This document shows positions 416-18,559 of a stretch of DNA of 18,559 bases, one piece after another (the first letter of the stretch is position 1; every line of letters starts with the position of its first letter). The DNA comes from Candidatus Woesearchaeota archaeon (GTDB lineage Archaea; Nanobdellota; Nanobdellia; Woesearchaeales; JAUUYB01). A program made the position numbers and the translations under genes. The notes under the pieces are model-generated. The model worked only from the letters and a program-made list of their open reading frames with translations, ran no database searches and had not been told where the DNA came from. The DNA lies in contig JAUUYB010000008.1 in the NCBI GenBank assembly GCA_030590605.1, positions 1 to 18,559 of the forward strand, written 5' to 3'.

Positions 416-416
416 A

Positions 417-3314: not shown

Positions 3315-4236
3315 ACAAGACAACATTTCGAGATGGATAGCGGTTATTGTGATCGTATTCCTTCTGGGTTTCATGAGCTTCTTTTTCTCGCTCATCATCG
3401 GATTATTCGTAAGCGACAATGCTATAGGTATCGGCAATGTGGCAGTCATTCCGGTCCAAGGGATCATACAGACAGGAGAGATCGGACTTCCTTTCTCTGG
3501 AGAAGTCGCATCTTCTGATAGGATCATAAAGGATATCAAGAAAGCGCAGGATGACCCTCAGATCAAGGCTATCATATTCGATATCAATTCTCCAGGAGGG
3601 TATCCTGTACCATCGCATGAGATCGTGAAAGCTGTAAAAAAAGTCAATAAGACAACGGTTGCGGTTGTCCGTGATATCGGAGCATCCGGTGCATATTGGA
3701 TAGCGAGCGCAAGCGATCATATAGTCGCAGACAGTTTCTCTTTAGTAGGGTCGATAGGTGTGACCTCCGCATTCCTCACGTTCGGAGGGTTCCTTGAGGA
3801 CCATAACATAACCTACCAAAGGATAGTCTCTGCCGAGATGAAAGACATAGGTACTCCTTACAAGGACCTGACTCCTGAAGAGACAGCGGTCCTTCAATCC
3901 ATCACCGACACTGCACATGAGATGTTCGTAAAAGACGTTGCAGGGAACAGGAATATCCCCTACAGCAAGATGGATGACCTGGCGAACGGGCAGGTATACC
4001 TGGGCGTGGACGCACTGAGGAAAGGACTGATCGACAGATTGGGAGGTATGGAAGAATCTATCGAATATCTTGAAGAGACCCTCAATATCACAGTAGATAC
4101 GATAATTTACTCGCACAAGGAATCTTTCCTGGAATCCCTATCCTCGATTTCAGGAGATCAAGCCTATTCGATAGGCTACGGCATCGGTAAGGCGATGATC
4201 TCGCAGGATTCCGGCAGCCAGCTTTCGATGACATGA
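3307..4236 (+). CDS. sppA: SppA-type signal peptide peptidase (serine/lysine protease), membrane-anchored
   Basis: A 309-residue S49-family protease in the short form. One membrane anchor spans about residues 10-35, with the catalytic part outside. The nucleophile is S127 in DIGASGAYWIASA. The general base is K179 in SAEMKDIGTPYKDLT. The 52-residue spacing matches the Ser-Lys dyad of the Bacillus subtilis enzyme (S147/K199). FDINSPGG (91-98) and VGSIGV are further family motifs. By family it cuts leftover signal peptides within the membrane or acts in membrane protein quality control. The start is TTG at 3307, supported by a strong AAGGTGAT ribosome site just upstream and by the absence of a better ATG before the anchor. 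It overlaps the upstream RDD gene by eight bases, so translation may be coupled. The C-terminal tail after residue 270 is serine-rich and variable. Confidence 0.88.
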   Translation: MAKQDNISRWIAVIVIVFLLGFMSFFFSLIIGLFVSDNAIGIGNVAVIPVQGIIQTGEIGLPFSGEVASSDRIIKDIKKAQDDPQIKAIIFDINSPGGYPVPSHEIVKAVKKVNKTTVAVVRDIGASGAYWIASASDHIVADSFSLVGSIGVTSAFLTFGGFLEDHNITYQRIVSAEMKDIGTPYKDLTPEETAVLQSITDTAHEMFVKDVAGNRNIPYSKMDDLANGQVYLGVDALRKGLIDRLGGMEESIEYLEETLNITVDTIIYSHKESFLESLSSISGDQAYSIGYGIGKAMISQDSGSQLSMT

Positions 4237-4333
4237 AAACAGGCTATTATGAAAGTCGTGGGGGGTGTCTTCCCCTCCAGCTAAAAGCCATGAAAACAAA
4301 AATTTTTATATAGGAGCAAGCCAACACATTTAC
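4237..4333 (+). promoter_or_regulatory. GMP synthase promoter region with TATA box
   Basis: The TTTTTATATA box at 4303-4312 is centred 26 bases before ATG 4334, so the message is probably leaderless. Upstream, a G-run followed by a C-run (about 4258-4278) could form a weak hairpin that ends the SppA transcript. It has no T-tract and I do not call it a terminator. Confidence 0.6.
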
Positions 4334-5860: not shown

Positions 5861-7229
5861 AATCTGTTATTTGAATAGGCACGATAATGTCTTTGCCTAA
5901 ATATCTCTTATATTGTTTTCCCATTTCAGGCCAGCCGAAATATGGTTTGAATATCATGGTAGCGTTTTCTTCAAAATCTATATTTGAATCTTTATAATAC
6001 GTCTTCGTTACGCTTTCCCCTGGAATTAGCACCTCTCCTTTGATAAAAGTGTCCATATATTGGTCGACTCTACCGCTGTTATTTATATACACTTCCATAG
6101 AGATATAATAACTATAATAACCTACATTTTGAGCGGACGTATTCTCATTGTTAGTAAATGTAAGATTAATTGAATTAATTACATTTTCCTTCTTTTCCAT
6201 CGTGGCATTGATACTGTTAACAGTAAAATTGAACTTATATTTTGTCAGGTAAAACATCTTCCAATTCCAGACAGTTGTTTCATTCAGCACCTTAGTTTCG
6301 ATAGAGAAATCTTGCAGCATCTCAGGAGCCATCCCACAGAATTCCATTATCTGTTCGGAAATATTTGTCATTTCTGGTTGCCGCTTATTGATTATCGAAT
6401 TGTAATTGAACATCAGTTCAGAATAGGTGGAACCTGTATAGGAAGAACTTAATGTGTCCATCCCTGATTCAAGTTTCTGGTAAATGATGATATTTTTAGT
6501 ACAAGGGATGATATGCAACGTACCGGCACATCCCCGATTATGAGTCCATATCCCATAGATATCAAATACTCTACCATGGACTATAGTTTGAGGGATTATC
6601 CCAATGCTTGTATTTACTTGACGTTGATCCCAAAATGTTGTTATGAAATCAGAGTCTACAAGTCTGTATTTTTTATATGAGTAATCCTTATCTACCTTTT
6701 CGAGCTCTTTCTCTGTCAATGGAAGGGTTCTCCAGTACAGGACTGTCTCATTGTAATAGTATCTCCATGCCTCCCAATTGTCCACAGACACAAAATCATT
6801 GAAAGCTGATGCGTTCCTGATTCTACTGTCATTGAATGTATGAACTACGAATACAGTATGTTTTCTATTTGAAGGGTAAATATCTTGACCTTCCGGCCTT
6901 ACCTCCTCCTGGTATTTCCTTGATCTGTTGTCGACTTTGAACCTATAATCGCTGTCAGTTATCCGATTTATCTCATCAAAGAGTTCATCCAATGTAAAGT
7001 TCCTGTCAGGGAATTCTATCTCGAGGTCGGTCACATTGTCAGGTTCAGATAAGATGGTCTCAATAATTGGAGGTTCATCCAGGACATGAACAGTTTCATT
7101 ATCTCCAGACGCGGTGATATTCTCATTATCCGGATCTCCTGATGATCCCACAGAAGGATCATATACAATATTTCCTGTGCATGACACCAGGAATAGAACA
7201 ATTACCAAGAATGATAATCTGATTAACAT
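5844..7229 (-). CDS. Large secreted lipoprotein, function unknown
   Basis: A 461-residue protein with a lipoprotein signal: hydrophobic residues 2-14, then VSC with the lipidated cysteine at 17. It should be exported and anchored to the outer face of the membrane. A low-complexity acidic linker (about 20-75) follows, then an acidic region and a mostly beta-predicted body. It has at least fifteen N-x-S/T sequons, which fits archaeal surface glycosylation. Three cysteines lie outside the signal, in NRGCAGTLHIIPC and EFCGM. The last ~110 residues (ENVINSINLTFTNNENTSAQ onward) look like an immunoglobulin-type beta sandwich, as in surface CARDB-like domains; this is a weak impression. I recognise no enzyme motif. 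A TTTTAATA box about 24 bases upstream of the ATG supports the start. The gene is A/T-richer than guaA, with which it overlaps tail to tail. Confidence 0.75.
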   Translation of the reverse strand: MLIRLSFLVIVLFLVSCTGNIVYDPSVGSSGDPDNENITASGDNETVHVLDEPPIIETILSEPDNVTDLEIEFPDRNFTLDELFDEINRITDSDYRFKVDNRSRKYQEEVRPEGQDIYPSNRKHTVFVVHTFNDSRIRNASAFNDFVSVDNWEAWRYYYNETVLYWRTLPLTEKELEKVDKDYSYKKYRLVDSDFITTFWDQRQVNTSIGIIPQTIVHGRVFDIYGIWTHNRGCAGTLHIIPCTKNIIIYQKLESGMDTLSSSYTGSTYSELMFNYNSIINKRQPEMTNISEQIMEFCGMAPEMLQDFSIETKVLNETTVWNWKMFYLTKYKFNFTVNSINATMEKKENVINSINLTFTNNENTSAQNVGYYSYYISMEVYINNSGRVDQYMDTFIKGEVLIPGESVTKTYYKDSNIDFEENATMIFKPYFGWPEMGKQYKRYLGKDIIVPIQITDSTPTR

Positions 7230-7251
7230 GTATTACCCATAATTGCTTATG

Positions 7252-7335
7252 GTATTAAAACATTCATATGATTAAAGATATTATTCATATTCTAACACAA
7301 TAAAACTTATTTACCCGTAATAAAGTTTATATAGG
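7252..7335. promoter_or_regulatory. Divergent promoters between two lipoprotein genes
   Basis: Minus strand: TTTTAATA near 7252-7260, about 24 bases from ATG 7229. Plus strand: GTTTATATAGG at 7325-7335, giving a transcript start near 7357 and a short leader with the GAGGAGAGGTG ribosome site before ATG 7369. Confidence 0.5.
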
Positions 7336-7368
7336 ATTATATTGTAAAATAGAGGAGAGGTGTTTACT

Positions 7369-7947
7369 ATGAAACGTTTACTCATCATCATGATCATTGC
7401 ATTGATTGCAGGGTGCTCTAATCCTGACCCTGTTGACCTGAATCCAGTAACTCCTCCTGTCACTCCTCCTGTTGAACCTCCGGTGGACCCAGTAGATCCA
7501 ACAGACCCGCCAGTCGATGCACCGAATGAGACTGTAAATGTGACAGTGGAACCAGTCATCCTGAAAGATGTGGATCCTCAGCTTGATCCAAAGACAGTTG
7601 TTGACGCTTACCTGGATCTGATGACAAAAGCTCTTGATGGAGATACTGTATCATATGAAGATGCATATAAGCTTATCTCACCTCACTCAACTAAGAACAT
7701 ACATTGGATGGCAAGCCTCGATAGGTTCATATCAGAAGCTGATGACACTTATGAGATATATGACTCAGGCAATAACCTCACCGGCTGGCTTGAGACCGAA
7801 GAATACGGCACATCCTATAGGGTCTTTTACTCATACGATGACGATGAGGAGGTATACTATATCACTCAGACATATGATGGGCTCTATTATATTGCGACAG
7901 GAAGCAAGAGAGGCTCGATGTTCTGGCGCTTCACAGGTCCCGAATGA
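7369..7947 (+). CDS. Lipoprotein with proline-rich stalk, function unknown
   Basis: A 192-residue protein with a clear lipoprotein signal MKRLLIIMIIALIAGC (lipidated C16). Residues 17-52 are a proline/acidic stalk built of PPV-D/E type repeats (VTPPVTPPVEPPVDPVDP), which would hold the domain away from the membrane. The domain from about 65 to 192 (VVDAYLDLMTKALDGD...) looks like a small alpha+beta fold of the NTF2-like kind seen in many exported proteins. This is inferred from pattern, with no catalytic motif. ATG 7369 is chosen over GTG 7360 because the GAGGAGAGGTG ribosome site ends inside the GTG. It is divergent from the large lipoprotein and overlaps the convergent hydrolase gene by 17 bases. 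Confidence 0.75.
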   Translation: MKRLLIIMIIALIAGCSNPDPVDLNPVTPPVTPPVEPPVDPVDPTDPPVDAPNETVNVTVEPVILKDVDPQLDPKTVVDAYLDLMTKALDGDTVSYEDAYKLISPHSTKNIHWMASLDRFISEADDTYEIYDSGNNLTGWLETEEYGTSYRVFYSYDDDEEVYYITQTYDGLYYIATGSKRGSMFWRFTGPE

Positions 7948-8770
7948 AATCATAGATGTGTTTGAAGGACGCTTTCCCTCTTTTATCCACCATTATGACA
8001 TGGTATACATCTTTTACCCAGACGATCTTCTTGACAAGAGAACCGGCTTTTCTGTAGATATAATCGACACTTCCTTCACCCACGCCCCAATCAGCTGTGG
8101 ACTGCATGATAAGTATGGGGGCTTTGATTTTCCTAAGTGACCGCTTGGCTTCTTTTACGATTTTCCCTGCATCGACTACGCTCTTGAGAGGGATATGCTT
8201 ATATGTCACTCTTTTTGCGACGGTCTCCGGATCAAGATTCAGTGTGTGGTACCATTTCTTTTGGTATATCTTGAATAGTTTGAGGATAGGAAATACTGCC
8301 TTGTATAGTTTCTCTTTTTTGACAAATATAGGGGTACCGATCGATATGACGCCGTCTACTTTATGATTTGCTGCATACCAAAGTGCCAGGCTTCCCCCCA
8401 TTGAATCCCCGCAGATCACGACCTTGTTTACATCTTTCTTCAGATCATTCATCGCATTTATTACTGACTTTTTCCAATCTTTTTCAGTGGTGGTAAGAAG
8501 ATGTTCTGGAGATGTTCCGTGTCCATCCAGGAGGACAGCTTTACAGCTTACCCCTTTTTTTGCAAGATAATTTCCGAGATCGATATAATCATAACATGAG
8601 CTCGTGAATCCATGTATGAACAGGATGCCGGTCTTTCCACGTTTGTGATAGAAAGGTTCTGCTCCAGGCAATATCTTCTCATTTGAGAAATCCTTGCGTC
8701 TGATGATGAAAAATCGCACTCCCCTATAGACATAGAGAAATACGAACATTGCTATGATGTATTCTATCAT
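7931..8770 (-). CDS. Membrane-anchored alpha/beta hydrolase (carboxylesterase / monoacylglycerol lipase-like)
   Basis: A 279-residue alpha/beta hydrolase. An N-terminal hydrophobic segment (about residues 3-22) followed by RR suggests a membrane anchor with the enzyme in the cytoplasm. HGFTSS (53-58) supplies the oxyanion hole. The nucleophile is S123 in CGDSMGG, the acid is probably D227 in STADWGV, and the histidine is H257 in VYHVIMVD; order and spacing fit the fold. The short length and DGHGTSPEHL recall Est30/monoacylglycerol-lipase-type esterases. The substrate is probably a lipid or other ester but is not known. The start codon overlaps the stop of the upstream coiled-coil gene (ATGA), so the two are one operon and may act together at the membrane. 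The 3' end overlaps the convergent lipoprotein gene. Confidence 0.88.
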   Translation of the reverse strand: MIEYIIAMFVFLYVYRGVRFFIIRRKDFSNEKILPGAEPFYHKRGKTGILFIHGFTSSCYDYIDLGNYLAKKGVSCKAVLLDGHGTSPEHLLTTTEKDWKKSVINAMNDLKKDVNKVVICGDSMGGSLALWYAANHKVDGVISIGTPIFVKKEKLYKAVFPILKLFKIYQKKWYHTLNLDPETVAKRVTYKHIPLKSVVDAGKIVKEAKRSLRKIKAPILIMQSTADWGVGEGSVDYIYRKAGSLVKKIVWVKDVYHVIMVDKRGKASFKHIYDFIRDL

Positions 8771-9351
8771 TTCCTTCTGATCCTCGAGACTAACCTTTCA
8801 AGGGAATCTATTTTCCTTTGAAGTGCCAATTTATCATCCTGAGCTGATTTGAGTTGCTTGGCAAAAGAGGAGAATTCAAAATCTGCATTCTTTATCCCGG
8901 ATGCTATCGATTTCAGCCTTTCCATCTGTTCAGTTGCCTCTTTGAATGATTTTCCGTTATTGTGGAGGGTGTCCTTAAGATTGTTATATTTTTCCATAGA
9001 ATGTTCAAGTTCTTTGCAGTGATCGATAAGCTCTTCCTGGAGTTTGGTATCAAATTTTTGGAGTATCTCTTTTTGCATCTCTTTTTTGAGGACGCTGAAA
9101 TCATAGACTGTCTTGCTGAACTGTTCCCTCGTATCCTTGATGTGTTTCATCTCTTCTCGGAAACTTTTCAGGAACTCATGCTGGGTAGAAGTGACCTCCT
9201 TGACATCATTTCTCAATATAGATATCTCTTCCTTGAATGATCTCATAGAAGATGATAAGCTTTCTACTTCAGTCTCATATGACCCGACTTTTTTGTTGAG
9301 TGTTTCAAGACTTTTCCCTATCGATACGATATTGCGTATTTTGCTTATCAT
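8767..9351 (-). CDS. Coiled-coil protein, function unknown
   Basis: From ATG 9351 this is 194 residues, nearly all predicted long helices with heptad spacing of hydrophobic residues (for example ILRNDVKEVTSTQHEFLKSF and the C-terminal KIDSLERLVSRIRRK). It has no signal peptide, membrane span or known catalytic motif. Charged residues dominate, so it is probably a rod-like scaffold. An open frame reaches TTG 9393, but a TTTTTTAAACC box centred 26 bases before ATG 9351 supports the later, leaderless start. It overlaps the hydrolase by ATGA, which suggests the two proteins are made together and may interact. It is divergent from ribK with back-to-back promoters. Confidence 0.75.
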   Translation of the reverse strand: MISKIRNIVSIGKSLETLNKKVGSYETEVESLSSSMRSFKEEISILRNDVKEVTSTQHEFLKSFREEMKHIKDTREQFSKTVYDFSVLKKEMQKEILQKFDTKLQEELIDHCKELEHSMEKYNNLKDTLHNNGKSFKEATEQMERLKSIASGIKNADFEFSSFAKQLKSAQDDKLALQRKIDSLERLVSRIRRK

Positions 9352-9372
9352 GCTGGGTTGGGACTTGATGGG

Positions 9373-9430
9373 GTTTAAAAAATTTGTCAACAACGGTATT
9401 ACTTAAAAAAGAGTACCACAAACTATTTAA
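9373..9430. promoter_or_regulatory. Divergent leaderless promoters (coiled-coil operon / ribK)
   Basis: Minus strand: TTTTTTAAACC at about 9372-9382, 26 bases from ATG 9351. Plus strand: TATTTAA at 9424-9430, 27 bases from ATG 9454. Both spacings fit archaeal leaderless starts and fix the start codons. Confidence 0.6.
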
Positions 9431-9453
9431 GTAACTAGCCATGACACAACAGG

Positions 9454-10125
9454 ATGGACAAACAGACCTCACGATATTTGGACATTCTACTTGCGATCGC
9501 CAAAGATGGAAGCCTTTTCGATACGGTCTCCACATCGACTGTCGCTCTGGCTAAACAACTGAAATCATCACAGCAATCTACATCAAGAAAACTTGTCGAG
9601 ATGGAACTCCTCGGACTGATCCGCAGGAGGACTAACCAACGGGGGATCACGATCTCCTTGACAGACAGAGGAGTCGGGCAGCTCACCTATCTTAGAGATG
9701 AGCTCATCCAGATAATAACATCTGAAAAAACACCAATTTTAGGCATGGTAGTTTCAGGACTTGGTGAAGGCGGCTATTATGTAGGCCAGGAAAGATACCA
9801 GACCCAATTCAAGAAAATGCTTGGGTTTTCAGCATTCCCCGGGACCCTGAATCTCCGCATAGATATAACCCAATTCAAGCATTTCCTCCATCAGAAAAAA
9901 CAGATTGTCATTAAAGGATTCAAAGGAGAGCATAGGACATTCGGACCTCTTAATTGCATTCCTGTCATGCTCAGGAATAAAAAAAACTCTGTAGAAGGGA
10001 GCCTGATCATCCCTGAACGGACTACACACCCTGAAGACATCGCAGAGGTAATAGCTAAAGACAATCTTCGTTCCCTCTTCGATATCAAGGACAATGATAA
10101 GGTAGAGATAGGTGCTATAGAATGA
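9454..10125 (+). CDS. ribK: CTP-dependent riboflavin kinase with winged-helix domain (archaeal type)
   Basis: Makes FMN from riboflavin, using CTP rather than ATP in this archaeal family (Methanocaldococcus MJ0056 is the model). It is 223 residues. Residues 1-85 are a MarR/winged-helix domain (STSTVALAKQLKSSQQSTSRKLVEME), a fusion found in several archaeal members that may make it a flavin-responsive regulator. The kinase domain from about 95 carries SGLGEGGYYVGQ (101-112), LGF (123-125) and PGTLNLRID (129-137), the nucleotide/metal-binding signatures of the family. The start is fixed by the TATA box 27 bases upstream. The stop overlaps the ATG of the EamA transporter (ATGA), which raises the possibility that the transporter moves riboflavin or a related compound; that link is inference. 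This gene is one of the clearest signs that the window is archaeal. Confidence 0.93.
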   Translation: MDKQTSRYLDILLAIAKDGSLFDTVSTSTVALAKQLKSSQQSTSRKLVEMELLGLIRRRTNQRGITISLTDRGVGQLTYLRDELIQIITSEKTPILGMVVSGLGEGGYYVGQERYQTQFKKMLGFSAFPGTLNLRIDITQFKHFLHQKKQIVIKGFKGEHRTFGPLNCIPVMLRNKKNSVEGSLIIPERTTHPEDIAEVIAKDNLRSLFDIKDNDKVEIGAIE

Positions 10126-11051
10126 ACAGAGGCGTGATTGGTGCGATATTTATTTCGGTAGCTGCCATGCTTTGGGCAGTTGACTCAGCTGCCCTTAGGC
10201 CTAAGCTTTTCCATCTTGATCCATTCATCGTTGTCTTTCTTGAACATGCGATCGCTTTCGCTTTCATGTTCGCATTCCTCATGATAGAGATAAAAGAGCT
10301 GAAGAAACTCAAGTGGAAAGATTGGGGTGCATTCGCCTGGGTCGCATTGTTCGGTGGAGCTATAGGTACACTCGCTATCACCAAGGCTTTTTTCGCAGTT
10401 TTCCTGGAAGGAGTCTCGAGTGTCTCCGTGATTGTCCTGCTCCAGAAACTTCAACCCGTATTTGCGATCCTTCTTGCTATGCTGATCCTTAAGGAACGTC
10501 CAAGACCATTGTTCTGGCCGCTTGCAGGAGCATCCCTTATAGGTTCATACATAGTAGCATTCGGATTTTCGATTCCTTCGCTAAGCTCTGCAAATCCCTC
10601 CCTCATCGTCCCTCTGCTTGCGATCATTGCCGCATTCTCTTTCGGTTCATCTACTGTTTTCGGAAAACGCGCGATTCAGAAAGTCAATTTCCGGGTCGCT
10701 GCATATATCCGGTTCGGACTGACTTCACTCATACTGATGTTATTTATCGTCTCCTTAGGGAAACTTGATGGTTTCAGCAGTATCGGCACGGACTCACTTC
10801 TCCTGATACTCATAATCGTATTCTCTTCGGGCGGACTTGCGATACTCCTGTATTACTACGGATTGAAGCGGGTCCTTGCATCCCGCGCGACCATATATGA
10901 GCTCGCTTTCCCGATAGCAGCGATAGTCCTTGATTACTTCTTGCATGATAAGGTATTAGGTCCAGGCCAGTGGGTGGGTGCGATCATCCTGATTGGATCT
11001 ATCACTACACTAACGCTGTATCATCAGAAAAAAACCGATGTTATTAAATAA
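10122..11051 (+). CDS. EamA/DMT-family transporter
   Basis: A 309-residue membrane protein with about ten hydrophobic helices in two similar halves (roughly residues 3-145 and 160-305), the EamA duplication of the drug/metabolite transporter superfamily. Typical features are the N-terminal ISVAAMLWAVDSAALRP, PVFAILLAMLILKERPRP near the end of the first half (the ErP motif), and AFPIAAIVLDYFLHDKVLGPGQWVGAIILI at the end of the second. It should sit in the cell membrane and move a small metabolite; the substrate cannot be read from sequence. It starts inside the last codons of ribK (ATGA overlap) and is surely co-transcribed with it. Riboflavin or precursor transport is therefore possible but unproven. 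Confidence 0.88.
   Translation: MNRGVIGAIFISVAAMLWAVDSAALRPKLFHLDPFIVVFLEHAIAFAFMFAFLMIEIKELKKLKWKDWGAFAWVALFGGAIGTLAITKAFFAVFLEGVSSVSVIVLLQKLQPVFAILLAMLILKERPRPLFWPLAGASLIGSYIVAFGFSIPSLSSANPSLIVPLLAIIAAFSFGSSTVFGKRAIQKVNFRVAAYIRFGLTSLILMLFIVSLGKLDGFSSIGTDSLLLILIIVFSSGGLAILLYYYGLKRVLASRATIYELAFPIAAIVLDYFLHDKVLGPGQWVGAIILIGSITTLTLYHQKKTDVIK
11042..11049 (+). promoter_or_regulatory. TATA box for the cysteine-cluster lipoprotein
   Basis: TATTAAAT overlaps the end of the EamA gene and is centred about 27 bases before ATG 11073, so the lipoprotein may be transcribed separately and leaderless. Confidence 0.45.
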
Positions 11052-11072
11052 CAACAAATCTGGAATATTTTC

Positions 11073-11684
11073 ATGACAAGATATCTCTTGCTCGGAGTTC
11101 TTTGTTTTATCATGGTTGTAGGATGCACCGATACAGATGAGGTTTCACAGCAGATCACAGGATTACAAGGACAGATAGATAATCTGCAATCACAAAATCA
11201 AAAATTAAGCATAGAGATAACTGCACTCAAGACATCGATAGATGAGAAAGACGCAGAGATTCTAGACCTTTCTGACCGCCTTCAGCGTTATGAAGACGAC
11301 CCGGGTGTCACCGGTAATCTTGACTCTGGCGCTTTCGGACTGATTGAATACGGAGAAGGAGACTGCATGCCATGCGGATGTGAATCCGGATTTGAATGCG
11401 GCTGTCCGGAAAAAGAATATTCTCCTTATGATGGAAAGATCGCATTGGTCTCTAAGATCCTTCTGGACTTTATGGGAGTCCCTTTAGATGATGACTATTC
11501 CTCTGTGATCGAATCCAGTGACCAGTTTGAGGTTACAAACGGAAGTTATGACATAAGGATAGACCATGGTATATATGTCTTGATGCCTGTAGATATGTAT
11601 CAGTACGGAGATAATGTCATCACGATACCAAAAGAGACTTTTGTCGAGAAAGACTTCCAGTTCTTCAGGTGCACTTCTTATTGA
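11073..11684 (+). CDS. Lipoprotein with coiled coil and cysteine cluster, function unknown
   Basis: A 203-residue protein in three parts. Residues 1-18 are a lipoprotein signal ending VVGC with lipidated C18. Residues 24-73 form a clean heptad coiled coil (ITGLQGQIDNLQSQNQKLSI). From about 98 comes a cysteine cluster C98-x2-C101-x-C103-x5-C109-x-C111 (CMPCGCESGFECGC), followed by an alpha+beta domain of about 90 residues ending in a further cysteine (FRCTSY). The cluster could bind zinc or an iron-sulphur centre, or form disulphides outside the cell. The coiled coil points to an oligomer held at the membrane surface. I do not recognise the C-terminal domain. A TATA box 27 bases upstream supports the start. 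Confidence 0.72.
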   Translation: MTRYLLLGVLCFIMVVGCTDTDEVSQQITGLQGQIDNLQSQNQKLSIEITALKTSIDEKDAEILDLSDRLQRYEDDPGVTGNLDSGAFGLIEYGEGDCMPCGCESGFECGCPEKEYSPYDGKIALVSKILLDFMGVPLDDDYSSVIESSDQFEVTNGSYDIRIDHGIYVLMPVDMYQYGDNVITIPKETFVEKDFQFFRCTSY

Positions 11685-11742
11685 GATGAATTTTAGATAA
11701 TTTTTAATATATCCCCTCCAGATATCATTATGAGGTGGAATT

Positions 11743-11955
11743 ATGAATCTTTTTGAGATGGCTGATAATCTCGGCAGCAAGATGAGATGGTACGACTTTT
11801 CTATCCTGAAATTGTCTATGGTCTTTGCCACACTTTTCCTGCTGACTGCATGGGAAGCATTCAGGAACTTGACTTTAGGAGTCGATTGGTATTGGTATCT
11901 GATCGCGACATTGGTCCTGATAATCCCTTTGATGAAAAAGATGTTTTCGGATTAA
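11743..11955 (+). CDS. Small two-helix membrane protein (70 aa), unknown
   Basis: ATG 11743 is preceded by a GAGGTGG ribosome site seven bases upstream and by TTTTTAATATAT at 11701-11712, so it has its own promoter and a short leader. The protein has a polar N-terminus (MNLFEMADNLGSKMRWYDF), a hydrophobic helix at about 20-37, a tryptophan/tyrosine-rich turn (WYWYL) and a second helix at about 48-64 ending in KKMFSD. I do not recognise the family. Its stop overlaps by four bases the stop of the minus-strand small ORF. Confidence 0.6.
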   Translation: MNLFEMADNLGSKMRWYDFSILKLSMVFATLFLLTAWEAFRNLTLGVDWYWYLIATLVLIIPLMKKMFSD

Positions 11956-12089
11956 CTATTGTTTTTTTCTTCCTTCCGTGCTATCCTATAGATATATGAC
12001 CCGGCAGCAATGATAAAGAGACCTGGAATCCATATCATCCCGGCAAAAATTATTATCAACCTCTCCCAGTTGCAGGGTATTTCAGGCAT
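11952..12089 (-). CDS. Small single-helix membrane protein (45 aa), hypothetical
   Basis: ATG 12089-12087 opens a 45-codon frame: MPEIPCNWERLIIIFAGMIW, then PGLFIIAAGSYIYRIARKEE and KNNS. One strong hydrophobic segment (about 11-34) is followed by a positively charged tail, as in a membrane protein with the C-terminus inside. A CATTATATGAT box centred 23-24 bases upstream fits a leaderless archaeal start, and an in-frame stop lies upstream with no other start codon. It is too short for certainty, but the promoter spacing and membrane-protein-like composition support it. It converges on the 70-residue membrane protein with a four-base overlap. Confidence 0.5.
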   Translation of the reverse strand: MPEIPCNWERLIIIFAGMIWIPGLFIIAAGSYIYRIARKEEKNNS

Positions 12090-12150
12090 CGCTTTTTCAA
12101 CAGGATCATATAATGCATATCTGTCTTAACTGAAGGAGGAGGTCTAAATA

Positions 12151-12345
12151 TTATATATAATTGTTTTTCAATTCTTGATAAATTCTAGTTTTCTTAAATT
12201 CAGCCATGAACTCTCTTTTTAGTTTGAAAAAATTTGTTTTTACTAATTGTTCTTTTAAACCCAATTCTCGTGCAATAGTATCATAATCTTTAGCTTCTAT
12301 CATCTTTCCATACAAGATTGTTCTGTCCCTATCATCTAAAGACAT
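12151..12345 (-). CDS. Sigma-70 region 4 fragment, in frame after a TGA in the sigma gene
   Basis: A 64-residue frame from ATG 12345. MSLDDRDRTILYGKM matches the L-x-x-R-x-R-x-I-L start of sigma region 4, and DYDTIARELGLKEQLVKTNF matches the T-x-x-E/D-I-A-x-x-L-G-[VL] helix-turn-helix. The recognition helix keeps the acidic residue after the turn (KEQ) but departs from the usual R-Q-I-E-x-x-A-L-x-K-L-R ending, so -35-type recognition may be weak or different. It lies in exactly the same frame as the upstream gene; only the codon TGA (12357-12355) and three codons (I, S, Q) separate them. No strong ribosome site precedes this ATG. It could be the end of a once-continuous protein, a separately made subunit, or reached by readthrough. 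Confidence 0.6.
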   Translation of the reverse strand: MSLDDRDRTILYGKMIEAKDYDTIARELGLKEQLVKTNFFKLKREFMAEFKKTRIYQELKNNYI

Positions 12346-12354
12346 CTGACTGAT

Positions 12355-12990
12355 TCAGGTTCCAATATGCTTTGATAAAGTTAATCCTGATAATGCACTT
12401 AGGGTTTCTTCTTCATTGCATTGACCGATAAAATTGCTTCTGTTAGTATCACTATCATACATAATCGGAGAATCCAGTGATATAGCCCTAAATTCATAGA
12501 CAATTTGTTTAAATTTTCTGATATTTTCTACTGTATACTCTTTTCCAAGATAATCTCCAGAGATTTTTGCCAAAAACTCATCTGATGGTTCTTTGCTGTG
12601 TTCTTCATAGTATCCTTCAATGATTTTATCACATTTTCTCCGTAATTCCTGTAAATTATAAGGTAGACTATCAATTTTTGATGATTGAAGAAATCTTACT
12701 ATTCCTTGCCTGATCCACCAAGTCCCATAAGAACTGAATTTGAATCCTTTTGATGGATCAAATTTAGTTACTGCTTTCATCAACCCGATATTTCCTTCTT
12801 GAATTAGATCTAATAGATTACCGTTTCTTGAATAAGGTTTTGCTACTGAAACAACCAAGAGTAAATTTGATTCGATAAACAATTTCTTTGCGTCAGGATC
12901 ATTTTTCATCTTTTTCGCTAACACAAACTCTTCTTCTCTATTTAGAAGCGAAGTTTTCGAAATTTCTTTTAGATAACTATCAAGTGTCAT
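12355..12990 (-). CDS. Bacterial-type sigma-70 factor, regions 1.2-3 (ends at an in-frame TGA)
   Basis: A 211-residue frame. Region 1.2: [20 protein letters not shown]. Region 2.1-2.2: [18 protein letters not shown] and [18 protein letters not shown] (61-78), the surface that grips the polymerase beta-prime clamp helices, nearly identical to E. coli sigma-70. Region 2.3-2.4: [18 protein letters not shown] (82-99), keeping the aromatic residues that melt and read the -10 element; the usual Thr after the Gln is Val. Region 3 covers about 105-170 and is followed by ISLDSPI. The frame stops at TGA, and region 4 continues in the same frame. A palindromic archaeal TATA box lies about 25 bases before the ATG. 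The gene is distinctly A/T-rich and uses ATT/TTA-type codons more than its neighbours, which suggests transfer. Archaeal transcription normally uses TBP and TFB, so its job here is unknown. Confidence 0.9.
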
Positions 12991-13008
12991 AATGGATGAA
13001 AATCATAG

Positions 13009-13020
13009 TTTTTATAAAAA
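13009..13020 (-). promoter_or_regulatory. Palindromic TATA box of the sigma-factor gene
   Basis: TTTTTATAAAAA lies in a longer A/T run. On the minus strand its centre is about 25 bases before ATG 12990, the usual archaeal leaderless spacing. The sigma-like gene therefore appears to be read by the normal archaeal TBP/TFB machinery. I see no bacterial -35/-10 pair that fits better. Confidence 0.6.
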
Positions 13021-13052
13021 TATATCATATTTATGTCAAGATTTCATATGTT

Positions 13053-13185
13053 CTATCCTTTCGCGATTATAACTCTCATCAGGGGGTCAGAAGCATATAT
13101 CCCTTCACACTTGTGCCATTTTTTTATGACAAAGAATGCAAATCCAAGGATGTTCTAACTTAATAGTGACAACAAATAGAAACAT
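13053..13185 (-). pseudogene. Small Cys/His-rich (zinc-finger-like) ORF with an apparent one-base frameshift
   Basis: From ATG 13185 the frame reads MFLFVVTIKLEHPWICILCH and then K-K, and ends early as MAQV-stop. If one base is removed from the run of seven A (plus strand T 13119-13125), it continues KKWHKCEGIYASDPLMRVII and AKG-stop, giving 43 residues with C-x2-C-H-x4-H-x-C, a plausible metal-binding pattern. The 133-base length fits one extra base. Homopolymer runs are common sites of sequencing error, slippage and real decay, and I cannot tell which. It is on the same strand as the sigma gene, with 62 bases between them. The antisense frame (13033-13158) is less protein-like. Confidence 0.35.
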
Positions 13186-13194
13186 TTAAATACC
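13184..13194 (+). promoter_or_regulatory. TATA box for the 13215 operon
   Basis: ATTTAAATACC is centred about 27 bases before ATG 13215 and points to a leaderless transcript covering both unknown genes. Confidence 0.6.
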
Positions 13195-13214
13195 ATCGAC
13201 CTTTAAGCAATCAT

Positions 13215-13757
13215 ATGGCCCACACAGCACAGAAAAGAGGAACCAATGGAGTAAATATCACTTCTACTGACAACCCTCACACCATCTATACAGACCTCAC
13301 CGGCGCACTCAGGACTTTCTATGATATTGTGGCAGGGAAGGCATCACAAGAGCTCGTTCAGTCCCATCCCAATCTCCCAAAAACAAGAATAGACGGCCTG
13401 GACTTTATCCAACCTGATCCAATAGATTTTTCAGGATTAGGTCATGGAAAACACATCTTATGTAGCTATCGTCTGGAGCAAAGAGTTAGAGGACACGCAA
13501 AAAAATTAGGGCATATCAACGTCACTTATTCAAAAATTCCGGGTAAAAGATACACTCCTAGCGAAGCTGACTATGCTGTTTCAGACACCTTCGCTTACAC
13601 CAAAGGGTCGCCGGATACCCATTCATTCAACCTGTGGTTCAATACATTTTTGCCTGGAAGAAAAGATACAGCTGTCGCGAGGAAGGGAGAGCGGGATAGG
13701 TTTGTGATGAACCTGGATGAACTTATATCCATATCCCATGCAAATCCATACAGGTAA
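13215..13757 (+). CDS. Hypothetical protein (180 aa), first of a two-gene operon
   Basis: I do not recognise this protein. It is soluble, rich in His, Lys and Arg, with no signal peptide, membrane segment or cysteine cluster (one Cys, in KHILCSYRLEQRVRGHAKKL). The first 40 residues, TGVNITS-like and polar, may be disordered; the rest looks alpha+beta. Motif-like stretches are IDGLDFIQPDPIDFSGLGHG and NLWFNTFLPGRKDT. The basic patch REQ/RGHAKK could bind nucleic acid, but that is only an impression. The start is fixed by a TATA box 27 bases upstream. The next gene begins directly after this stop codon (TAAATG), so the two are co-transcribed and probably work together. Codon use resembles the housekeeping genes here and not the sigma gene. 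Confidence 0.75.
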   Translation: MAHTAQKRGTNGVNITSTDNPHTIYTDLTGALRTFYDIVAGKASQELVQSHPNLPKTRIDGLDFIQPDPIDFSGLGHGKHILCSYRLEQRVRGHAKKLGHINVTYSKIPGKRYTPSEADYAVSDTFAYTKGSPDTHSFNLWFNTFLPGRKDTAVARKGERDRFVMNLDELISISHANPYR

Positions 13758-14636
13758 ATGTCCAGATTGAGTGAACATCGGGAAGAGATGTTTGATTTTC
13801 TCAGGAAGAATATCGCTTGCAAGAAAGTATATCAGGAGCCTGACAGATCGCTGATTGTCAAGAAGCGCAATGCTACATACTGGATCAGGGCTTTTTCCAG
13901 GATCGGCGAAGTCAAACCGGACTTTCATAAGGATCCGACCAATTTTGATGAGGACAGGAGGTATCTCCAGACACTCTATGATGAGATGCTCGAGGTCATC
14001 ACCCAGACTAATCAAAAAGGGTTGATCCCCGGCTTTGTCTTCTTAAAATCGGTTCCAGACAGGAAGAATCTGGGGACCGGAAAGCGTGTCAATGACAGCA
14101 GTTTTGGCAAGCAGTATGTACAGGGAACATCTAGACCCTGGAATGACATGAGGCAGCTTTCACCCCTGGAGGTAGTGATCCAGCAGTTCAATGGGCATCA
14201 TTCTAAGACATCGAATCAATCAGATGGAAAAATGGTGCAAAAAAGATGGAAAGGTAAGATCAGGATAGATGACCATGATGTGCACTATTCATATTTCCCT
14301 GAACTGGCATATTATAACCCTAAAAAGAATCAGCTTGAGATCAATTATTATGCCAAGATAGCTGACACCCTGCCTTTCAAAAGAGATACCTGTCCTGTTT
14401 GCGTCCTTGATAATTCCTCAGATCATCAGGCATGTAAAAGATCAAGAGAGTATGTCAGTTGGGTCAAAGAAAGGACCTTCGCGCGTTATGTCCGCAGAGA
14501 AAGACAGATGAGGATACGTCCGGCTCAAAGAGATACTTCTGTAACCGGAGGAGGGATCGATATCACCTTCGGAATCCTGGACTCCGCCACCCTTCCGAAT
14601 ATTTCTGAAAGATTGAGAATTACGTACTTCAAATAA
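13758..14636 (+). CDS. Hypothetical protein (292 aa) with C-x2-C...C motif, second of a two-gene operon
   Basis: Not recognised. It is a soluble, strongly basic protein. The N-terminal third is helical (MSRLSEHREEMFDFLRKNIA). The middle has charged beta-like segments: KMVQKRWKGKIRIDD and HYSYFPELAYYNPKKNQLEI. Then comes CPVCVLDNSSDHQAC (near residue 213), a C-x2-C-x8-H-x2-C arrangement that could bind zinc. An arginine-rich stretch follows (ERTFARYVRRERQMRIRPAQ), suggesting contact with RNA or DNA, and a final beta-like part with TGGGIDITFG. The ATG directly abuts the upstream stop, which indicates coupled translation. No catalytic motif of a known nuclease, methylase or ligase is visible. 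The Ski2-like helicase follows but has its own promoter. Confidence 0.75.
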   Translation: MSRLSEHREEMFDFLRKNIACKKVYQEPDRSLIVKKRNATYWIRAFSRIGEVKPDFHKDPTNFDEDRRYLQTLYDEMLEVITQTNQKGLIPGFVFLKSVPDRKNLGTGKRVNDSSFGKQYVQGTSRPWNDMRQLSPLEVVIQQFNGHHSKTSNQSDGKMVQKRWKGKIRIDDHDVHYSYFPELAYYNPKKNQLEINYYAKIADTLPFKRDTCPVCVLDNSSDHQACKRSREYVSWVKERTFARYVRRERQMRIRPAQRDTSVTGGGIDITFGILDSATLPNISERLRITYFK

Positions 14637-14641
14637 CGAGA

Positions 14642-14650
14642 TTTTAAATA
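14642..14650 (+). promoter_or_regulatory. TATA box for the Ski2-like helicase
   Basis: TTTTAAATA lies just after the stop of the preceding gene and is centred about 27 bases before ATG 14674, so the helicase is probably made from its own leaderless message. Confidence 0.6.
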
Positions 14651-14673
14651 CCCCTTCTTTCTCGCAAACTCCT

Positions 14674-16581
14674 ATGCAATACAGAGAATTTACTCTCGAC
14701 AAATTCCAGGAAGATTCTGTTCTCGAACTTGAAAAAAACAATTCAGTCGTCGTATCAGCACCGACCGGTTCAGGAAAGACACTTGTAGCGGATTATGTAA
14801 TCGAGATGGACACTAAGAAAGGGAAGAATATCATATACACTGCACCGATAAAGGCACTTTCGAACCAGAAATATAAGGAGTTCTCAGAGCTTTTCGGAAA
14901 AGACAAGGTCGGTCTCCTGACCGGCGACATCACGATCAACCAGGGCGCTCAGATCCAGATAATGACTACAGAGATCTTCAGGAACATGGCGATTACCGGA
15001 GACTCATGCTTAGATAAAGTCTCATACGTCATCTTTGATGAGATCCATTACATCAACGACATAGAACGTGGCCATATCTGGGAAGAATCCATAATATTCG
15101 CTCCTGACCACATGAGATTCCTCTGTCTTTCTGCGACGATCCCTAATGCTGATGAATTCGCTGAATGGATACATTCCATCAAGAAGGACCACATCGTGAA
15201 GACCATCCACCATGATGTGAGGTATGTCCCGCTGCACCATTCGTTCTACACCCGGGAGCTGGGTGTAAGCGATCTTAAAGAGATCAAAGAGATCAAGGAC
15301 ATCCCTGTCCAGAGGAAGAGAAGAAGAGGGAAAAAGCCGGAAAGGCCGGAGATGCCATCCCATGTCGAACTCGTAAACATCCTGAAGGACAAGACACCTA
15401 TACTGTTCTTCACATTCTCAAGATTGCAGTGCCAGAAGCACGCAGTGGAAATAGCTAAGAAGAACTTCTTCAGGCCTGATCCGGAGATAACGAGATATGT
15501 CCGGGAAAAGCTGGCTGATGCACCTGTAGAGATCAACAGGCTCGAATCAGCTAAGACTCTACGGATGATCCTTCCAAGAGGGATCGGTTTCCACCACGCA
15601 GGTCTGATTCCGCAGATGAAAGAGATCGTCGAAGGCCTCTTCGGTATGGGAAAGATAAAAGTCCTATACACTACTGAGACTTTCGCAGTCGGGATCAACA
15701 TGCCGGCTAAGACAGTGTGTTTCGATGCCCTGAGAAAATATGATGGCATCAACTTCAGATATCTGAACTCAAAAGAATACTTCCAGATGGCAGGACGTGC
15801 AGGAAGACGTGGTATAGATAAGGAAGGTTTCGTCTACTCTATGCTCTATCTCCCGAATTTTGAGTATGCCAAGGTCGAACGTTTCACTTCTAAGGATGTC
15901 GAGCCATTGAAATCCCAGTTCAGGATAGAGGTGAATGCAGTGATCAACATGGAGATGCAGCATTCAAAAGAAGAGATCGACAGGATACTTACGCAGAGCC
16001 TCTATGCATTCCAGAATAAGGAACAGGGCATCAGGCAGATCAAGGCGACATATGCGAAACTGTTGAAGAGGCTCAAGAGCACCGGTTACCTGTCACAAGA
16101 AGGCAAAGTCACATGGAAAGGCAGGTTCGCAGCGAGCATTTTCTGCGATGAAGTCCAGATCTCTGAAGTGTTCTCTACAGATTACTACAAGAATTTTTCA
16201 GACTATCAGATTCTCCTCTACATAACATGCCTCGTATATGAGCATAGGGACAAGACCAGGTTCTACAAGAGATACCCGTCCAAGGAGATGACTGATCTCA
16301 AGAAGAAACTGAAGAACCATCCGATACTGAAAGCAGATACCCGGTGGAGACAGATGAGCAAGATCTCAGCTTTTGTCTACCCTATAATGCATGGAGGGGA
16401 TTTCTTTGATATCCTTGACCTTACAAATCTTCTCGAAGGGGATATAATCAGGATATACAGCCAGGTATTGGACCGCATATCTCAGATATTGAAGGCTACT
16501 GACGAACCTGATCTCATGATGAAGATGAAGAGATGCAGAAAGATAGTCGAGGACTGCATGAAAGATATCTCAAGGATATGA
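14674..16581 (+). CDS. Ski2/Mtr4-like DExH RNA helicase
   Basis: A 635-residue superfamily 2 helicase. Motif I is APTGSGKT (29-36), with TAPIKALSNQKY as motif Ia and LTGD as Ib. Motif II is DEIH (122-125), the variant typical of Mtr4/Ski2. Motif III is LSATIPN, with IGFHHAGLIP and TTETFAVGINMPA after it, and motif VI is QMAGRAGRRG. A short basic insert (QRKRRRGKKPERP, about 214-226) stands where Ski2-like proteins have a linker. The C-terminal ~200 residues are helical, as in the DSHCT region of this family. It is shorter than eukaryotic Mtr4 and lacks the arch domain. Known relatives unwind RNA for the exosome. The archaeal DNA helicase Hel308 is a cousin, but DEIH and the C-terminus fit the Ski2/Mtr4 side better. 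An RNA-processing role is inferred. A T-rich terminator follows. Confidence 0.88.
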   Translation: MQYREFTLDKFQEDSVLELEKNNSVVVSAPTGSGKTLVADYVIEMDTKKGKNIIYTAPIKALSNQKYKEFSELFGKDKVGLLTGDITINQGAQIQIMTTEIFRNMAITGDSCLDKVSYVIFDEIHYINDIERGHIWEESIIFAPDHMRFLCLSATIPNADEFAEWIHSIKKDHIVKTIHHDVRYVPLHHSFYTRELGVSDLKEIKEIKDIPVQRKRRRGKKPERPEMPSHVELVNILKDKTPILFFTFSRLQCQKHAVEIAKKNFFRPDPEITRYVREKLADAPVEINRLESAKTLRMILPRGIGFHHAGLIPQMKEIVEGLFGMGKIKVLYTTETFAVGINMPAKTVCFDALRKYDGINFRYLNSKEYFQMAGRAGRRGIDKEGFVYSMLYLPNFEYAKVERFTSKDVEPLKSQFRIEVNAVINMEMQHSKEEIDRILTQSLYAFQNKEQGIRQIKATYAKLLKRLKSTGYLSQEGKVTWKGRFAASIFCDEVQISEVFSTDYYKNFSDYQILLYITCLVYEHRDKTRFYKRYPSKEMTDLKKKLKNHPILKADTRWRQMSKISAFVYPIMHGGDFFDILDLTNLLEGDIIRIYSQVLDRISQILKATDEPDLMMKMKRCRKIVEDCMKDISRI

Positions 16582-16582
16582 T

Positions 16583-16606
16583 TTCTTTTTTTACTTTTGT
16601 CTTTCT
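16583..16606 (+). terminator. T-rich archaeal-type terminator after the helicase
   Basis: TTTCTTTTTTTACTTTTGTCTTTC begins right after the helicase stop codon. Oligo-T tracts without a hairpin are the usual archaeal termination signal. Confidence 0.55.
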
Positions 16607-16627
16607 CTAGTGGTTAAAACCATAACA

Positions 16628-16664
16628 TTTTTATATCATCAACCCATCCTGATAATCAGAGGGG
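16628..16664 (+). promoter_or_regulatory. Promoter and ribosome site of the 16673-18506 operon
   Basis: TATA box TTTTTATAT at 16628-16636 predicts a start near 16660, and GAGGGGATGA at 16658-16667 lies just before ATG 16673. These signals rule out the longer open frame beginning at 16610, which would read through the TATA box. Confidence 0.55.
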
Positions 16665-16672
16665 ATGAGAAC

Positions 16673-16822
16673 ATGCCAAAAGACCTAAATGAAAAAGTCA
16701 TCGATCTTGAAAAAAAATACGAACAGCTTATCAAAGACGATCCGATCAAACAGGCTGCAATTGCGCTTGGTGTTGGTGTTGCGATCGGTCTGGTAGCGGC
16801 TTTGTTGATGAAAAGAAAATGA
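16673..16822 (+). CDS. Small tail-anchored membrane protein (49 aa), YqjD/DUF883-like
   Basis: A 49-residue protein with a soluble helical N-terminus (MPKDLNEKVIDLEKKYEQLI) and one C-terminal membrane helix rich in small residues (ALGVGVAIGLVAALL) ending in MKRK. This layout, with a glycine-zipper helix and basic end, resembles the C-terminus of bacterial YqjD/ElaB (DUF883) membrane proteins, some of which have been described as ribosome-associated. The match is by pattern only. The start is supported by a GAGGGGA ribosome site nine bases upstream. Its stop overlaps the start of the next membrane protein (ATGA), again as in the bacterial yqjD-yqjE pair. Confidence 0.65.
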   Translation: MPKDLNEKVIDLEKKYEQLIKDDPIKQAAIALGVGVAIGLVAALLMKRK

Positions 16823-17106
16823 TAAAAGAAATAACAAGTCTATTGCATGAAGTATTCAAGAGTACAGAAAGTAACATCAGTCGGATGGTGAACAAGGCAG
16901 AACAGACAGCATGGAAGAAACTCTACTCCCTCAAAATATTCGTGACTAGGACTGCACTCGAGATCTCTCTGCTCTTATTCGGAATCGGGTTCTTCCTCAT
17001 CGGACTCGTCCTCCTGTTAGGGAACATCATAAGGATAGACATCCTGCTCCTCCTCCTTGGACTCATCCTGATCAACATCGTCCTCATCTTCGGCAGATTC
17101 AAGTGA
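16819..17106 (+). CDS. Two-helix membrane protein (95 aa), YqjE/holin-superfamily-like
   Basis: A 95-residue protein with an amphipathic N-terminal helix of about 45 residues (SLLHEVFKSTESNISRMVNK), then two hydrophobic helices at about 46-66 and 72-90 joined by NIIRID. In shape it resembles bacterial YqjE-type proteins (DUF1469, 'phage holin superfamily III' by name). It is co-translated with the 49-residue tail-anchored protein through an ATGA overlap. The similarity is of architecture and gene order, and I did not recognise specific conserved residues. The XRE-type regulator gene starts 20 bases downstream and is probably in the same operon. Confidence 0.62.
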   Translation: MIKEITSLLHEVFKSTESNISRMVNKAEQTAWKKLYSLKIFVTRTALEISLLLFGIGFFLIGLVLLLGNIIRIDILLLLLGLILINIVLIFGRFK

Positions 17107-17126
17107 TCCCTCCCTGAGGTTGACAG

Positions 17127-18506
17127 ATGGTACTTAAGAATATTCTAGAAGAAAAAGAGCTTACAGATCTTCTTGGAGCCCCTCTAAAGAGAGACGAACT
17201 TCTCATAGAAAGGTTTTGCTTTGACTATGGACAGCTTGAAGATATCCGTTCATACAAAAGAAATGAACAGCGTATCGATCTTGCTGCCCAGCTTCTCCTA
17301 AAAAATATCAGAGAAAACAACTTGGTCAAACGCAAAGACGAAGGGGCTCAGATCACTACGATCACCCTTGCTGCGATAATAGAGAAAGATTGGTATAGGC
17401 GTAAGATCCACACTAACCGCACATCAAAAGCTATCAGGCGACTCGTAGGTAATCCTAAAGATATCGTAACTGGACGTCTGATTCCCCCCGCCACACATTT
17501 TCTCAGGGAAAAGTATGATGCATATCATGGAAATCTCTTTGAAGCTGAAAGAGTATACCCTAACTTTTCTGCGACCCCTTTCGATTGGCAGAACAGCGTG
17601 ACTATCCCGCTTGATATGGGATTCAATGAATGCCTTCTGTTAGGTGTGCTTGGGTTTATTGCCTATAAACCCCTAAACCGTCCTGGACTCATCAGGTTGA
17701 ACATGAAGAAACTGACCCGCAAAGGAAAGAATGACCCTAACTATCAGTTTCTTGAAACGATATCTTCATTCATCCGGAACCAATACAATATCATAGCAGA
17801 ATCGAAAATAGAGGATAAGCCTATCGACGTCGAGAACGGCTTGGAGACTAACCAGAAGAAAGTGATGGAATGCATCGAATTCCTGGGTAACGGTCCAGTC
17901 ATATCTTATTATCTTACCCCATATCTCCAGTTCTCCTCGAAAGCCATTAAATCCTGGATAACCCAAGACCTAGGCCTGGGCGGAGATCCCGAAAAAGTAT
18001 TCGAGGTCTTTAAAGAAAGAACACAGTTGGAAGGTCTTTTTGCCGGCGGGATTTCAAGGACGAATATCAACTATCGGGGTGGAAGCGCAGTGTTCTCTTT
18101 AAGGCTAAAAAATCAGTTCTATATGTCGATGATGAGCAAGTTAGGGACTGAGTTGGGATACCCCATAGCTCCGCCTAATTCGAGAAAGCTTCTCATCCAG
18201 AACAGGGCTCTTGTATGGGACCTCTATCGAAGAGGGCATTACCTCCATCCGATGCATAGGATGGAAATCGGAAATTATCATCAGCCGAACATACCTTCAT
18301 GGGAACTTGGTCAGGAGACCTTGGGAGGAAAGATATCCTATCTCAGAAATCAGGCCCATCTCTCACAGGTACGGTTTGCAGACCTGCTCGGAGTGACCCC
18401 CACATCTGTCGAGAACTGGGAAGCAGACAAAAACACACCAAGAGAGAACATATTAGACAAGATCACTGTTTATTTCAATCTTCCAAAAGACCGGCTTATC
18501 AAATAG
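17127..18506 (+). CDS. LAGLIDADG-like protein with C-terminal XRE helix-turn-helix; probable DNA-binding regulator
   Basis: A 459-residue protein with no signal peptide. Residues about 400-457 are a clear XRE/Cro helix-turn-helix (GGKISYLRNQAHLSQVRFAD, then LLGVTPTSVENWE). The middle resembles a two-copy LAGLIDADG fold. LLLGVLGFIAY (170-180) could be the first motif helix. LEGLFAGGIS (301-310) could be the second, followed by the family-like run SAVFSLRLKN...MSKLGTELGY and SRKLLIQNRALVWDLYRRG. The acidic residues that bind metal in homing endonucleases are missing (AGG instead of D-x-D/G), so cutting activity is unlikely. The N-terminal 110 residues are helical and basic. A degraded LAGLIDADG core joined to a helix-turn-helix recalls bacterial WhiA. 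GAGGTTGA before the ATG supports the start. The helix-turn-helix is firm; the LAGLIDADG link is inference. Confidence 0.75.
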   Translation: MVLKNILEEKELTDLLGAPLKRDELLIERFCFDYGQLEDIRSYKRNEQRIDLAAQLLLKNIRENNLVKRKDEGAQITTITLAAIIEKDWYRRKIHTNRTSKAIRRLVGNPKDIVTGRLIPPATHFLREKYDAYHGNLFEAERVYPNFSATPFDWQNSVTIPLDMGFNECLLLGVLGFIAYKPLNRPGLIRLNMKKLTRKGKNDPNYQFLETISSFIRNQYNIIAESKIEDKPIDVENGLETNQKKVMECIEFLGNGPVISYYLTPYLQFSSKAIKSWITQDLGLGGDPEKVFEVFKERTQLEGLFAGGISRTNINYRGGSAVFSLRLKNQFYMSMMSKLGTELGYPIAPPNSRKLLIQNRALVWDLYRRGHYLHPMHRMEIGNYHQPNIPSWELGQETLGGKISYLRNQAHLSQVRFADLLGVTPTSVENWEADKNTPRENILDKITVYFNLPKDRLIK

Positions 18507-18522
18507 AGCCGACAAGCGGCTA

Positions 18523-18559
18523 TTATGAAATCCTCGCTACTATCGTCAGTCCGAGCTTC
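18523..18559 (-). CDS. Possible C-terminus of a further gene (runs off the right edge)
   Basis: On the minus strand the last codons read KLGLTIVARIS followed by TAA and TAG. This looks like a natural protein end and sits in the space after the convergent 459-residue gene. Eleven codons are too few to name a family. Confidence 0.25.
   Translation of the reverse strand, partial: KLGLTIVARIS

Follow-up and report, generated by a model that had tools for sequence, protein, structure and literature searches.

What might a bacterial-type sigma-70 factor do in an archaeon? Archaeal RNA polymerase is understood to start transcription with TBP and TFB, and an original prediction for a contig of a Candidatus Woesearchaeota archaeon placed a sigma-70 protein in the midst of archaeal genes. 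The stretch analysed (JAUUYB010000008.1, positions 1 to 18,559) is referred to here at its full length of 18,559 nt as the window. A real sigma-70 family gene is present on the minus strand of this archaeal contig (Table 1). Its regions 1.2 and 2 scored above the cut-offs of Pfam Sigma70_r1_2 and Sigma70_r2, the strings originally quoted for regions 2.2 and 2.3 were found to be present, and its PDB sequence matches were bacterial SigA, RpoD, RpoS and SigB (best E 6.2e-33). Regions 3 and 4, which had been claimed together with regions 1.2 and 2, fared less well: the Pfam scan of the window protein gave no region 3 match, a 3.2-like stretch being visible by alignment only, and region 4 lies past an in-frame TGA, has changed 4.2 residues and scored 24.1 bits with PF08281, just under the cut-off of 25.7. 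The same TGA breaks 12151-12990, which had been taken as one open frame. A structure model of the 211-aa product (mean pLDDT 77.8, pTM 0.52) gave a list of PDB structure matches that were sigma chains (best E 5.1e-11); since rmsd values over the chain were 10.7-17.6 Å, the placement of domains in the model is tentative. The stop codon, the low GC content at third codon positions (GC3) and the fact that promoter-reading residues have been lost, all treated below, had been overlooked.

Table 1. Positions of the sigma-70 gene, its parts and its upstream elements in the window
Feature	Position	Strand	Remarks
Sigma gene, open product of 211 aa (region 1.2 to region 3.2 finger)	12355..12990	minus	Stop codon included; ATG at 12990, TGA 12357-12355
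Sigma-70 region 1.2, residues 3-29	12904..12984	minus	PF00140, 37.9 bits (cut-off 22)
Sigma-70 region 2, residues 39-103	12682..12876	minus	PF04542, 63.1 bits (cut-off 24)
Region 3.2 finger-like stretch, residues 171-189	12424..12480	minus	Alignment to bacterial and archaeal sigma factors
In-frame TGA	12355..12357	minus	Between region 3.2 and region 4
Continuation in the same frame past the TGA	12151..12354	minus	67 codons with a diverged region 4, then TAA 12153-12151
Possible separate region 4 polypeptide, 64 aa	12151..12345	minus	ATG 9 nt past the TGA
TATA-like box TTTTTATAAAA	13010..13020	minus	Starts 30 nt before the sigma ATG
TTGACA-N17-TATAAA	13011..13039	minus	11/12 match; second hexamer shared with the TATA box; picked after the fact

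The genome around this gene is archaeal, and the claim of a bacterial-type sigma factor in an archaeal genome was borne out. The draft assembly (1.13 Mb, 166 contigs, 84% complete) encodes one archaeal Rpo1, one TFB and two TBPs (genes at G000:C28 and G000:C142); the window gene is its sole Sigma70_r2 match, and no second, bacterial-type largest polymerase subunit was found in it. The CTP-type riboflavin kinase named as a neighbour was confirmed by a domain above its Pfam cut-off, and a second neighbour exceeded the NCBIfam cut-off for MiaB-like-B methylthiotransferases, a type that we take to be archaeal. The window also encodes a Ski2/Hel308-like helicase (14674-16581), homologues of which (51 and 47% identical) lie near sigma in loci L151 and L158; such a helicase was near sigma in three of 41 loci, the window included.

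A sigma-70 gene in an archaeon of this kind is not new, as sigma-70 is already in print for DPANN (fam00359), mostly for Woesearchaeota and without anti-sigma factors, in the accessible portion of PMC8204110. As in the present case, the fam00359 genomes also encode TBP and TFB, and the family is prevalent in Woesearchaeota; in contrast, the clamp mismatch, the subtype and the stop codon described below are not treated in that portion. Homologues in related archaea, on which the original prediction depended, were many, and one of them sits in a single-contig genome (G010). Sigma70_r2 was matched in 37 of 99 genomes, the window's own included (36 above the cut-off), and the A3 profile found sigma in 106 of 352 genomes of the order, again with its own included (E 1e-6). 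In overlapping samples of the class and the phylum, sigma was present in 59/378 and 60/371 genomes, respectively (E 1e-20). A pattern scan of genome contigs returned nine loci, all bacterial; its patterns were ill-aimed and its silence on archaea is uninformative.

The best match of the window sigma was a Nanoarchaeota MAG protein (61%), and four DPANN-type rows led the matches listed, the next 116 of which reached at most 49%. In a tree of 132 rows, thinned from 225 by a k-mer rule, the window sigma grouped with P0002, a protein of a Nanoarchaeota archaeon (SH-aLRT 100), then with P0003 and P0004 (97) and then with the sigma of genome G368 (90). The phylogeny against bacterial, phage and archaeal sigma factors that had been proposed as a check backs the clade of the window with DPANN proteins but not the deep order, this being a quick tree with 66 of 129 inner branches open. 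Its archaeal rows required 16 label changes, at least two being forced. Elsewhere, loci L183 and L189, from two genera of one family, had six neighbours around sigma in common (in L189, four of them were a PPDK-like protein, a class II tRNA synthetase, a THUMP methyltransferase and an aminotransferase), which speaks for stable inheritance there, of a sigma subtype other than that of the window.

The composition of the window gene differs from that of its surroundings. GC3 was 0.23 before the TGA and 0.25 after it; the 19 neighbour genes ranged from 0.39 to 0.62, and this gap suggests that the gene arrived from a genome of lower GC. Frames of 272-359 aa accounted for 32 of the 36 matches listed from other orders of the class; this is the size class of the window gene, and the loci fetched from those orders were mostly of low GC (0.26-0.37). 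On the simplest reading, the window sigma was acquired from a low-GC relative, the transfer presumably having run in that direction.

The TGA is an ordinary stop codon in the window, where it terminates 10 of the 19 neighbour genes, and was therefore read as a stop in the sigma gene too. Five close relatives are uninterrupted (P0002, P0123, P0124, P0003 and P0004, with 57, 50, 51, 49 and 46% identity to the read-through frame) and carry H, H, Q, H and S, respectively, at the TGA column. Recoding was ruled out on the grounds of the neighbour genes and of these residues, and an Rfam scan of the window, which bears on the same point, found no family at its gathering score. The part past the TGA is conserved with P0002 (49%), and, given the local base composition, 66 codons free of stops would arise there by chance with a probability of 0.0009. 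When P0003 and P0004 served as outgroups, 10 changes before the TGA were unique to the window (mean BLOSUM +1.30), compared with 18 unique to P0002 (+0.06); after the TGA the numbers were three (+2.00) and two (-0.50). No decay was seen on either side by unique changes or BLOSUM values; R385 (to L) and K393 (to P) of region 2.1 have changed in an unusual way. With both halves free of decay, the TGA is recent, or is an assembly error, or divides the protein into two. Most likely, the window copy is a very recently disabled allele or an assembly error.

Alignment of the window sigma revealed which faces of the protein are bacterial in type. The clamp-grip residues D403, Q406, E407, N409 and M413 and the melting residues F427, Y430, W433 and W434 are kept, and D403, Q406, E407, N409, F427, Y430 and W434 are kept in all four members of the window's sigma subtype. 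Among the residues checked for reading of the -10, extended -10 and -35 elements, R436, Q437, R441 and E458 are kept, and changes were found at T440 (to V), R451 (to S), V454 (to Y) and H455 (to N) and, in region 4.2, at R584 (to E), E585 (to Q), R586 (to L), R588 (to K) and Q589 (to T). The promoter-reading roles are those that we take these residues to have, apart from the roles given in PMC8321222. Region 4.2 is often kept in other archaeal sigma factors, the same five residues being present in 18 of 18 members of an RpoD-like group. On this pattern, the window's subtype appears to have given up much of bacterial promoter reading and to have retained the polymerase and melting face. Like RpoD and RpoS, sigma factors of groups 1 and 2, the window sigma has regions 1.2 and 2 with the clamp-grip and melting residues; unlike them, it has mostly changed promoter-reading residues and an archaeal host polymerase. 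Assignment as an RpoD or RpoS equivalog was rejected, since the 211-aa product scored 141.2 and 135.8 bits where NCBIfam requires 555 and 378.7, respectively, and P0002-P0004 were also below the cut-offs.

The polymerase side does not mirror the sigma side. In the accessible text of a study on E. coli, the beta' substitutions R275Q, E295K and A302D hamper holoenzyme formation, and sigma residues 403, 406, 407 and 409 bind the beta' coiled coil, where changing them merely weakens binding. A gap-free alignment of the helices revealed that the equivalents of R275, E295 and A302 are absent from all 25 archaeal Rpo1 rows (being I, A or V; L; and H, respectively), with positions R278, L279, P288 and Q300 shared with bacterial beta'. 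Thirteen of these rows came from genomes with sigma and 12 from genomes without it, the latter meaning no match in the sigma profile searches; the search for Rpo1 had covered 30 genomes, five of them without a match. Rows with and without sigma were alike, which ruled out co-variation of the clamp helices with the presence of sigma. The original statement that the protein keeps its clamp-grip residues along with those for melting thus stands for sigma, but the archaeal clamp lacks three bacterial sigma-binding residues. It follows that other contacts are used, or a different polymerase, or that no polymerase is needed. In four genomes (G368, G436, G578 and G419; loci L219, L220, L222 and L223), Rpo1 frames were 1154-1171 aa long, compared with about 850-985 aa in most others, and are perhaps fusions of A' and A''.

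Tentatively, we favour the reading that this sigma factor assists initiation by the cell's own polymerase as an accessory factor, with an altered choice of promoters, and that the window copy is disabled or mis-assembled. Starting from what is observed directly (family, genome, stop codon, composition, residue pattern and absence of decay), a sigma-70 gene of the small DPANN subtype would have been taken up from a lower-GC genome and would be transcribed by the archaeon's TBP/TFB machinery through the TATA-like box. In intact relatives, sigma region 2 would dock on the archaeon's own RNA polymerase at its clamp helices, and DNA would be opened at a few promoters that no longer obey the bacterial -10/-35 rule; in this assembly the TGA leaves the window copy only a product of regions 1.2 to 3.2, which would have lost its function. 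This reading is consistent with the archaeal host and its single type of largest subunit, with the clamp-grip and melting residues kept throughout the subtype, with the low GC3 and the same-size forms in mostly low-GC loci of other orders, with the housekeeping neighbours conserved around another sigma subtype, with the TATA-like box and the absence of decay flanking the TGA, and with the four shared clamp positions. Against it stand the three missing clamp residues, whether sigma is present or not, and the flap-tip helix, which binds region 4 and is commonly absent from archaea according to the portion of PMC8321222 available.

Promoter counts also weigh against an accessory initiation factor. 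TATA-like boxes were commonest 20-49 nt ahead of the start in 34 archaeal sigma genes with an upstream region of their own, a set from which the window gene is excluded, and likewise in 180 controls. Sigma-70-like sites were not enriched upstream of the 34 genes (Mann-Whitney p 0.42). The 21 genomes with sigma had 20 exact TTGACA-N16-18-TATAAT sites and the 19 without it had 24, which is no excess; control sites with wrong spacers numbered 34 and 25, respectively. Exact consensus promoters are scarce in any genome, hence the low power of this genome-wide count. No target gene of the window sigma was found.

An unlikely alternative is that the protein, although derived from sigma, no longer starts transcription and serves as a DNA-binding or defence module by which foreign DNA is sensed or opened, something that may also occur in systems with the sigma-like protein MzaA. 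The bacterial contact residues missing from the archaeal clamp fit such a module, and MzaA models match the window sigma (112 bits in NCBIfam, 77 bits in PADLOC). MzaA was also the best PADLOC match in all five large sigma proteins scanned, and among the large relatives one carries a fused Helicase_C domain (L156) and another lies beside a HATPase_c_3 protein (L155). Yet the cut-off of the NCBIfam model is 800 bits, the match is confined to the sigma part, as it is in the large relatives, and the melting residues are retained. The window sigma, short and standing alone, shares a sigma domain with MzaA of the MZA anti-phage system but is without its long N-terminal part, and no MZA set was seen among the PADLOC-scanned neighbours. 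Identification as MzaA itself was rejected at 112.1 of 800 bits, with the PADLOC match covering MzaA 411-513 of 683 and no partner in the scanned neighbours.

The large sigma relatives varied in layout. A single frame of 1550 aa (L151:4696-9348, G249) has three sigma-70 region 2 stretches and a GC3 of 0.32, its neighbours having 0.24-0.47. Three consecutive sigma genes of 475-494 aa are present in L160 and L161, from two genomes of one genus (G219 and G220). In L156:371-3661 (G254), a Helicase_C domain is followed by sigma in one fused protein, for which PADLOC adds similarity to a ZorD-like helicase. In L155:5385-10446 (G228), an 877-aa sigma lies beside a 793-aa HATPase_c_3 (GHKL) protein, an arrangement reminiscent of MzaA-MzaB, by unproven analogy. 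In five further loci (L152, L153, L163, L164 and L166), the large sigma adjoins another large gene on the same strand (554-756+ aa), mostly without a Pfam match; these partners were alike in sequence only between L152 and L153.

A virus-serving role had also been suggested, and it is quite unlikely that the gene belongs to a virus or mobile element of these archaea and redirects the host polymerase. The viral sigma family phrog_351 matches the window sigma at 136 bits, which is about level with the RpoD and RpoS models, and among the matches listed viral contigs carry sigma at up to 49% identity (best-segment figures). The foreign GC3 points the same way, as do two accessory genes beside sigma (13215-14636): no relatives were found in searches with the first, and the second occurs in five of 352 genomes, its own included. 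However, the tree places the window sigma among DPANN proteins and apart from 29 viral rows, these being the rows entered from 80 viral sigma loci kept of at least 511 confirmed. A scan of nine window proteins found no viral structural genes, the exceptions being weak matches to tail proteins through coiled coils (26.9 bits for the best, at 8767-9393) and, at 17127-18506, HTH matches of the repressor type.

It is very unlikely that the target of the window sigma is a bacterial partner's polymerase, another option suggested at the outset. The contact side of sigma is indeed bacterial and the archaeal side is not; against this, most of the residues that read -10 and -35 elements in bacteria have changed, and no membrane-like or signal-like stretch was found in the window sigma, five relatives and 23 other small forms by a crude 19-residue hydropathy test used in place of a signal-peptide predictor.

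Only a slim chance is given to a split sigma factor, in which a 211-residue part and a 64-residue region 4 part would be made separately and cooperate. The TGA separates region 3.2 from region 4, an in-frame ATG follows closely, both halves are conserved, and a two-subunit factor, SigO-RsoA, is known in Bacillus subtilis from the accessible part of PMC10028694. If both window halves are made, Sigma2 and sigma4 would be on separate polypeptides as in that pair; unlike that pair, the window halves belong to one frame that a lone stop interrupts, and the region 4 part is putative. All five close relatives are unsplit, the arrangement is seen in a single copy in one draft genome, and no clear ribosome-binding site was found by eye.

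It is highly improbable that such a split sigma works on the archaeal polymerase and controls itself through TTGACA-N17-TATAAA, with the -10 box doubling as the archaeal TATA box. The local chance of this site ahead of the window gene is 0.0037 for a site chosen after it had been seen, and two sites of its 11/12 type were found window-wide where 0.47 were expected; a sigma-promoter scan demanding T at the last base does not list it. As the subtype is without the usual -35 reading residues, the site is a lead only. Assuming usual spacings, transcripts would presumably start at about 13004 for sigma and about 12990 for TBP/TFB, and two unrelated initiation systems would in that case read a single promoter, each from its own start site. 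Self-regulation in the wider sigma family was not backed: upstream enrichment is absent, and 11/12 sites were present in 0 of 47 sigma genes and two of 237 controls.

A chimeric assembly with bacterial DNA, for which the fragmented, incomplete draft and the lower local GC might be cited, is hardly credible for a lone gene flanked by archaeal genes on one contig with a Nanoarchaeota best match and homologues in many related archaea.

What is new here is a testable mismatch between the bacterial-type contact residues of sigma and an archaeal clamp without three matching beta' residues, and this makes the open question of what archaeal sigma factors do sharply testable. If a DPANN sigma factor loads on the archaeal polymerase, two initiation systems would serve one enzyme, which would bear on the relation between sigma and TFB.
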